In this document: positions 7,703 to 40,097 of the stretch, one piece after another
How positions within the stretch are numbered: position 1 is the stretch's first letter
Layout: each line of letters starts with the position of its first letter
Source of the DNA: Lineus longissimus
Lineage: Eukaryota; Nemertea; Pilidiophora; Heteronemertea; Lineidae
Direction of reading: 5' to 3'
Length of the DNA stretch: 64,000 nucleotides
Assembly (NCBI RefSeq): GCF_910592395.1
Contig: NC_088324.1
Location: 7,156,953 to 7,220,952, forward strand
The notes under the pieces: model-generated
What the model was told of the DNA's origin: nothing
Databases searched by the model: none
The model's input: only the letters and a program-made list of their open reading frames with translations
Position numbers and translations under genes: made by a program

Positions 7703-7778
7703 ATGACTTCGGGAAATTCGATATCGGTTGGGTTGTTGTTACTGGTCTTTTCAGCATCAGTCTACCATACAGCGTCAA
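7703..7778 (+). CDS. Collagen gene exon 1: signal peptide
   Basis: Encodes residues 1-25: a short polar start (MTSGNSISV) then the hydrophobic core [11 protein letters not shown] and a small-residue region YHTAS suited to signal peptidase cleavage. Donor GTAAGT follows at 7779. The exon ends in phase 1 and joins the next exon to make Ser26. Confidence 0.88.

Positions 7779-40097: not shown

Follow-up and report, generated by a model that had tools for sequence, protein, structure and literature searches.

How an animal might hold together a collagen triple helix that is almost devoid of proline is the question raised by a predicted gene in the nemertean Lineus longissimus, located within a stretch of 64,000 nucleotides (contig NC_088324.1, positions 7,156,953 to 7,220,952, forward strand; termed 'the window', in whose own coordinates all positions are given). 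Why animal triple helices are stable has been answered mostly with hydroxyproline, on the basis of proline-rich collagens. The predicted gene provides a full natural helix sequence of 1,434 Gly-X-Y triplets with four prolines in X or Y, in which threonine at Y and Lys-Gly-Asp/Glu pairs appear as visible substitutes, and with it an old biochemical claim from tubeworm cuticle becomes testable with defined peptides. That pattern is the best clue to how the helix works, and it was overlooked in a preliminary description of the locus that had been made from the DNA letters. If the reading proposed below is true, the locus might also serve as a model, at the level of the gene, of the threonine-stabilised collagen that has been studied as protein in tubeworm cuticle.

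The gene comprises 33 predicted exons, running from 7703 to 40097 on the forward strand and closed by one terminal stop codon (40095-40097). All 32 predicted introns are of the GT-AG type, the reading frame is unbroken across the exons, and the coding sequence of 14,898 nucleotides specifies a chain of 4,965 residues (calculated mass 452 kDa) that contains, in order, a signal-peptide-like start, a 174-residue N-terminal region, the helix, eight EGF-type exons, a membrane helix and a tail. This chain is a gene-model prediction from genomic sequence: its helix exons were located by a splice search that rewarded Gly-X-Y periodicity between about 10.9 and 33.05 kb, three false short introns at repeat imperfections were merged by hand, and the N- and C-terminal exons were placed by reading the sequence. 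The splice search was blind to the exon list of the preliminary description; the finished model agrees exactly with that description in its number of exons and its two end coordinates, and likewise joins without a break of frame. Exons 6-32 (27 of the 33) are without exception of phase 1-1, and their skipping or duplication could, to judge from these phases, preserve the frame; 15 of the 19 helix exons 6-24 are exact multiples of nine bases, the exceptions being exons 10, 19 and 22, with a two-residue interruption each, and exon 24, in which the helix ends. The longest strict one-frame run of Gly-X-Y reaches 329 triplets, against a maximum of 3 on the minus strand and of 5 across 50 Markov-shuffled windows; every run of at least 6 triplets, on either strand of the window, lies at least partly within the model exons. 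The three exons tested against the Pfam Collagen model (6, 13 and 22) scored 229, 472 and 433 bits, respectively. By its sequence, the locus looks like one real, functional animal gene. Two upstream ATGs, at 7668 and 7680, share a 12-codon frame (7668-7706) that ends in a stop sharing bases with the collagen start codon (ATGA) and is relevant only if the transcript begins 5' of both.

The predicted helix occupies 4,314 residues, which would span about 1.23 micrometres at 0.286 nm per residue, and so extends, as had been proposed, far beyond the roughly 1,014 residues of a fibrillar collagen. The earlier estimate of about 1,439 triplets resolves into 1,434 intact triplets and five short interruptions (PAN, ATD, VK, VA and AV), while its count of five prolines was exact: three in X, one in Y and one inside an interruption. 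Overall, the helix contains 34.4% glycine, 18.8% threonine, 10.7% valine, 8.7% lysine, 6.1% alanine, 6.0% aspartate, 5.6% serine and 0.12% proline. The distribution of these residues is strongly positional, with threonine at 783 of the 1,434 Y positions (and 26 in X), lysine at 373 in Y (and 1 in X), acidic residues at 351 in X (and 24 in Y), and valine as the most frequent X residue (380 of 1,434). Two traits of Riftia-type annelid cuticle collagens are present, namely exceptional helix length and, in Y, 783 threonines to a single proline; consecutive triplets with threonine in Y are separated by at most nine others.

Many of the charged residues fall into pairs. Glycine and an acid follow 219 of the 377 basic Y residues, where 2,000 shuffles of the triplets gave a mean of 92 (standard deviation 7.4, maximum 113), although single-triplet shuffling breaks repeat units and the excess may be partly inherited with the repeats. 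All 17 helix exons for which the register was read correctly also have acids more often after basic Y residues than after other Y residues (a count that excludes exons 10, 13 and 22, where the register was wrong, and includes exon 19 in part). According to passages of PMC7824840, KGE and KGD pairs can raise the melting temperature of collagen peptides by 15.4-17.5 C through inter-chain salt bridges, and passages of PMC11766948 and PMC10141479 ascribe the stability of the cuticle collagen of Riftia to its many glycosylated threonines. By analogy, we infer that glycosylated threonine and salt bridges may act as substitutes for hydroxyproline in the helix.

For a D-periodic fibril, stagger scores (computed without a banded collagen as control) gave no signal: z was 1.0, -0.9, -0.4 and -1.0 at lags of 234, 468, 702 and 936, with a best value of 2.2 within 3 residues of 234, and the top scores, which fall at either end of the lags covered (31-41 and 2388-2399), are probably smoothing artefacts. 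An unbanded helix that lacks a 234-residue period is a feature of annelid cuticle collagen of the Riftia type. Near the N-terminal end of the helix, exon 5 (11267-11690) encodes one RGD (residues 280-282) and one cysteine (residue 297).

Comparison of internal repeats indicates that the helix is conserved at the protein level while its silent sites drift. Among four successive 234-bp units of exon 13 (six pairs), the three pairs formed by the first three units differ by a synonymous divergence (dS) of 0.29-0.67 and a nonsynonymous divergence (dN) of 0.03-0.05, and the three pairs involving the fourth by a dS of 1.0-1.5 and a dN of 0.32-0.35. The 14 best ungapped self-matches of 90 residues, which were selected by amino-acid identity and are thereby biased to a low proportion of nonsynonymous differences (pN), show a pN of 0.07-0.18 against a synonymous proportion (pS) of 0.35-0.80. 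The 122 copies of the motif GDTGVT are written in 102 different DNA spellings. Simulated substitution of 1% of the bases in the helix broke on average 29 of the 1,434 glycines (never fewer than 17 over 20 runs) and created 4.6 stops (0 in at least one run), and substitution of 5% broke 142 and created 20; the actual helix has zero stops, and only two triplets (PAN and ATD) are without glycine. A pseudogene or a recent microsatellite-like expansion was ruled out on these grounds (mostly silent differences between copies, the variety of GDTGVT spellings, and the glycines lost at 1% change), because the protein is conserved while silent sites drift.

Behind the helix, the chain matches FXa_inhibition and EGF_CA (seven stretches each), cEGF, EGF_3, EGF and hEGF above the Pfam cut-offs; the modules are spread over eight exons (25-32), six of them with six cysteines and two (26 and 32) with four. 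No COLFI propeptide was found by Pfam at E <= 1 in the C-terminal 452 residues, where these six EGF-type families lie instead. Residues 4890-4908 are the most hydrophobic 19-mer of the whole protein (mean 2.59), and the tail behind them begins with basic residues. Signal peptide and membrane helix were called by hydropathy, by which the predicted chain has a single start resembling a signal peptide and a single strong membrane segment; a weaker segment just N-terminal to the helix (176-194, hydropathy 1.53) might conceivably be another. A single-sequence fold model of exon 33 consists of one helix over its residues 8-56, with block means of the predicted local distance difference test (pLDDT) of 91 and 84 in residues 31-50, although its overall mean pLDDT is only 63 and its predicted template modelling score (pTM) 0.30. 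Coiled coils have reportedly been described in type XIII and some other transmembrane collagens.

Hydropathy and Pfam thus support what the preliminary description had proposed for this end of the molecule: EGF modules beside the membrane, a C-terminal membrane helix and, together with the signal-peptide-like start, a type I topology in which the collagen helix is N-terminal and the membrane anchor C-terminal. Such C-terminal anchoring, if true, would demand rules of folding, export and placement unlike those of type II membrane collagens. Relatives of the C-terminus are numerous (566 proteins at E <= 0.001), and those with names among the best 120 belong to the EGF proteins, with fibrillin, fibulin, SCUBE and MEGF6 as examples. 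None of these 120 contains a strict Gly-X-Y run of at least 8 triplets, and none matches the N-terminal region or the part from the juxtamembrane stretch to the tail (BLASTP, E <= 1); a strong hydrophobic segment past residue 40 is found in 6, in 5 of them near the C-terminus.

The N-terminal domain had been described as new, and the searches, within their scope, agree. Its 174 residues have no match at E <= 1 in Pfam or NCBIfam and nothing better than E 0.86 in the PDB (where matches at E 0.86-1.3 represent chance), and searches of a large protein database within limited length ranges, described below, were likewise empty. A fold model of exon 2 alone is not interpretable (mean pLDDT 42.9). 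In a 'LQVW ... GD-IGW' pattern, the region may resemble beta-sandwich domains that occur in surface proteins of invertebrates.

The reading that we favour, with a confidence midway between doubt and conviction, is that of a giant type I membrane collagen, stabilised by threonine-linked sugars and salt bridges, that would stand as a rod on an epithelial surface, extend into the apical matrix and perhaps later be shed. Three chains would trimerise at their membrane ends through the EGF modules, the short heptad and the membrane helix, and zipping would then proceed toward the N-terminus until a homotrimer some 1.23 micrometres long had formed (4,314 x 0.286 nm). O-glycosylated threonines in Y, together with Lys-Gly-Asp/Glu salt bridges, would take the place of hydroxyproline in holding the helix. 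Projecting from the epithelium, the rod would carry the N-terminal region at its tip and reach into an apical matrix, be it cuticle, glycocalyx or a matrix on the shell side, which it might later join by being shed. A bolder version, which we consider rather unlikely, is that of a type I transmembrane collagen, possibly the first from any animal: a permanently C-terminally anchored homotrimeric rod of more than 1 micrometre, stabilised by sugars and salt bridges, with a lineage-specific tip domain, many of which would form a bristle forest on the epithelium.

Several points weigh against the proposed membrane rod, beyond the possible inheritance of the salt-bridge excess with the repeats and the low overall scores of the exon 33 model. 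We know of no gene of the supposed Riftia type. For the N-terminal region, the large protein database (which does contain many animal proteins) offered no match at E <= 0.1 among 38 candidates of about 96-304 residues and none at E <= 1 among 275 long candidates of about 1,511-4,807 residues, searches that are blind to relatives of 305-1,510 residues and to full-length equals of 4,965; no orthologue ties the collagen to a cuticle, because no relative of this region or of exon 33 was found. Threonine in Y is in itself no proof of glycosylation, because bacterial collagens carry it at 31.6-48.3% of Y positions, mostly without glycosylation (passages of PMC8968730). In the relevant passages of PMC12403961, moreover, the giant annelid collagens are proline-rich (G-P-Y 33-40%, G-X-P 22-33%), and the top siboglinid models are far shorter and contain proline (for Riftia, 13% of X and 36% of Y).

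The alternative that survives best, possible if somewhat doubtful, is a secreted shell or matrix collagen of the kind found in the brachiopod Lingula, in which the membrane helix would serve only to assemble the trimer and would always be cleaved, leaving a matrix fibre as the mature form. The shell collagens of Lingula carry EGF domains, and a collagen figure legend in PMC4595640 lists EGF, EGF_CA and Fxa_inhibition, Pfam families that are matched here as well. The searches with the N-terminal region, over the two ranges of candidate length just given, produced no match, and no furin-type R-x-[KR]-R site was found in the predicted protein.

It is improbable, in our estimate, that the gene encodes an internal or basement-membrane-type collagen, or a coat of gut or ciliary surfaces, with a role unrelated to cuticle or shell. 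Split-glycine phase-1 introns and short interruptions are common in non-fibrillar collagens, and nothing about the tissue can be read from the neighbours, a receptor of the rhodopsin type and a frame with a thioredoxin domain; on the other side, no type IV C4 domain was found by Pfam at the C-terminus, and a C-terminal membrane anchor would better suit a surface coat. Least probable, and hardly to be expected, is a false joining of two or three adjacent genes (one for the N-terminal part or the collagen, another for an EGF-membrane protein): the exons were joined by prediction, the helix is linked to the EGF modules through exons 24 and 25 alone, 13 AATAAA motifs lie inside the gene (11 intronic, 2 exonic), and EGF-membrane proteins without collagen do exist (the 6 of the best 120 of 566 relatives noted above), but the frame is kept at every junction, with exons 6-32 uniformly of phase 1-1, a signal-peptide-like start and a strong membrane segment were each found just once, and 13 AATAAA motifs are unremarkable because about 16 are expected from base composition.

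The features of the gene are collected in Table 1.

Table 1. Predicted features of the collagen gene, in coordinates of the window
Feature	Position	Strand	Basis or remark
TATA-box-like candidate core promoter, TATATAAA	7632..7639	+	64-71 bases before start codon; placed relative to ATG only
Exon 1: start codon, signal-peptide-like start, residues 1-26	7703..7778	+	hydrophobic 7-25, mean 1.57
Exon 2: N-terminal non-collagenous region, part one, residues 26-116	8097..8368	+	gene model
Exon 3: N-terminal region, part two, residues 117-192; single Cys at 125	9005..9230	+	gene model
Exon 4: end of N-terminal region, initial Gly-X-Y triplets	10930..10970	+	gene model
Exon 5: helix	11267..11690	+	gene model
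Exon 6: helix, 1,386 nt = 154 x 9	11876..13261	+	gene model, Pfam Collagen
Exon 7: helix	13751..14353	+	gene model
Exon 8: helix	14773..15123	+	gene model
Exon 9: helix	15424..16026	+	gene model
Exon 10: helix, two-residue interruption VK	16527..16874	+	gene model
Exon 11: helix	17349..17573	+	gene model
Exon 12: helix	17680..18471	+	gene model
Exon 13: helix, 2,952 nt = 328 x 9; internal 234-bp duplications	19419..22370	+	gene model, repeat analysis, Pfam Collagen
Exon 14: helix	22607..22687	+	gene model
Exon 15: helix	23396..23476	+	gene model
Exon 16: helix	24455..24697	+	gene model
Exon 17: helix	24851..25021	+	gene model
Exon 18: helix	25216..25368	+	gene model
Exon 19: helix, two-residue interruption VA	26280..26753	+	gene model
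Exon 20: helix	27153..27368	+	gene model
Exon 21: helix	27907..28149	+	gene model
Exon 22: helix, 2,661 nt, two-residue interruption AV	28467..31127	+	gene model, Pfam Collagen
Exon 23: helix	31584..32294	+	gene model
Exon 24: helix end, at residue 4513	32696..32917	+	gene model
Exon 25: EGF-type module no. 1 (DVDEC...), six Cys	33533..33715	+	gene model, Pfam
Exon 26: EGF-type module, four Cys	34075..34170	+	gene model, Cys count
Exon 27: EGF-type module, six Cys; best match FXa-inhibition	34614..34736	+	gene model, Pfam
Exon 28: EGF-type module, six Cys	35146..35271	+	gene model, Pfam
Exon 29: EGF-type module, six Cys	36284..36406	+	gene model, Pfam
Exon 30: EGF-type module, six Cys	36911..37036	+	gene model, Pfam
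Exon 31: EGF-type module, six Cys	37634..37756	+	gene model, Pfam
Exon 32: final EGF-type module, four Cys; juxtamembrane stretch begins	38591..38710	+	gene model, Pfam
Exon 33: juxtamembrane helix with V-L-V-L heptad (by eye), putative membrane helix 4890-4908, cytoplasmic tail, stop TGA	39775..40097	+	hydropathy, fold model
AATAAA polyadenylation signal candidate	40347..40352	+	starts 250 bases after stop

Elsewhere in the window, a dispersed 32-base stretch occurs in six copies (18827-18858, 23636-23667, 39410-39441, 41468-41499, 58259-58290 and 59029-59060), three of which fall inside collagen-gene introns; it was found in 0 of 100 shuffles, and tandem sub-units of 42-43 bp adjoin two of the copies. 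The intron after exon 29 contains a 16-base tandem repeat (36661-36774; 7.2 copies, 69% matches). On the minus strand lie a rhodopsin-type receptor in a single frame of 357 residues (45763-46836), whose nearest solved relatives include, with weak scores, the GPR35, somatostatin and kappa-opioid receptors, and a thioredoxin-domain frame (55558-55872) that is probably part of a multi-exon gene. A sub-threshold Pfam match (E 0.041) likens a fragment at 61941-62273 to the zinc-binding end of a reverse transcriptase, and Rfam gave no match at its gathering thresholds.

Comparison with known collagens begins with the tubeworm Riftia, whose cuticle collagen has threonine in Y, a length of about 1.5 micrometres and about 18% threonine, to be set beside the predicted 1.23 micrometres and 18.8% of this helix. 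A very long helix is shared with annelid cuticle collagens at large, and the stability of the Riftia protein is ascribed to glycosylated threonine in the same passages that leave EGF modules and a membrane anchor unmentioned; the likeness is one of length and composition. The alvinellid collagens of four species (7,719-8,859 residues), and a similar one in the earthworm Eisenia, are comparable in their extreme chain length, which none of the siboglinid gene models reaches (passages of PMC12403961; the repeat counts of its Table 1, 5,012-5,722, are larger than one third of the chain lengths given there and were not used as triplet numbers). They differ in carrying proline at 22-40% in X and Y, according to those passages, against three X and one Y of 1,434 here.

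The EGF collagens of Lingula resemble the predicted chain in that EGF-type modules, from Pfam families matched here too, accompany a collagen helix, a likeness by family names drawn from parts of PMC4595640 that are silent on length, proline, N-terminal region and anchor. Fibrillar collagens, in contrast, have an uninterrupted helix of about 1,014 residues and a COLFI domain, where 4,314 residues, five interruptions and no COLFI were found here. The MACIT and other transmembrane collagens (XIII, XXIII, XXV, MARCO and gliomedin) are likewise membrane-anchored, but are of type II with a C-terminal helix (PMC13138384), as the preliminary description had held in calling known vertebrate membrane collagens type II and far shorter; the present chain is predicted to be of type I, with an N-terminal and far longer helix. 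In the passages of PMC4678570 that treat their distribution, MACITs were not found in Annelida or Mollusca.

Bacterial collagens and collagens of viral contigs share a proline-poor or proline-free helix with threonine and lysine in Y and acids in X (passages of PMC8968730, and the loci fetched here). A query with the helix fetched 137 bacterial, archaeal and viral-contig loci, a sample that was picked by helix-like patterns, includes near-duplicates and favours tracts of this kind. At least 12 triplets in one run were present in 135 (the longest of 556); proline made up less than 1% of X plus Y in 20 of the 78 viral runs and in 3 of the 57 from prokaryotes, and threonine filled at least half of the Y positions in 17 of 135. 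Exon 13 also scores strongly against the NCBIfam models of Lcl and Scl adhesins, scores that we take to reflect the repeat only. The prokaryotic genes are intronless, unlike this gene with its 32 predicted introns, EGF modules and valine as top X residue. Bacterial transfer of the helix was rejected in view of those predicted introns, the split-glycine phase-1 joints and the EGF modules, all of animal type, and the similarity was taken as probably compositional.

In the literature searched, whose scope left most subscription journals outside, no collagen was found that pairs a type I transmembrane topology with EGF-like modules, nor, among the matches listed, any giant proline-free or threonine-rich animal collagen. 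The layout had been called 'distinct', which was overstated for its single features, as each alone has precedent (length in annelids, where longer chains exist, EGF modules in Lingula, and a proline-free helix in bacteria and viral contigs); it stands for their combination and for the type I anchor, neither of which was found elsewhere within the material compared. As far as the sources consulted extend, the predicted type I anchor and the unmatched N-terminal region are what set the chain apart from Riftia-type and Lingula collagens. By analogy, the gene would work most like a threonine-stabilised collagen of the cuticle type, while carrying the domain set of the Lingula EGF collagens.
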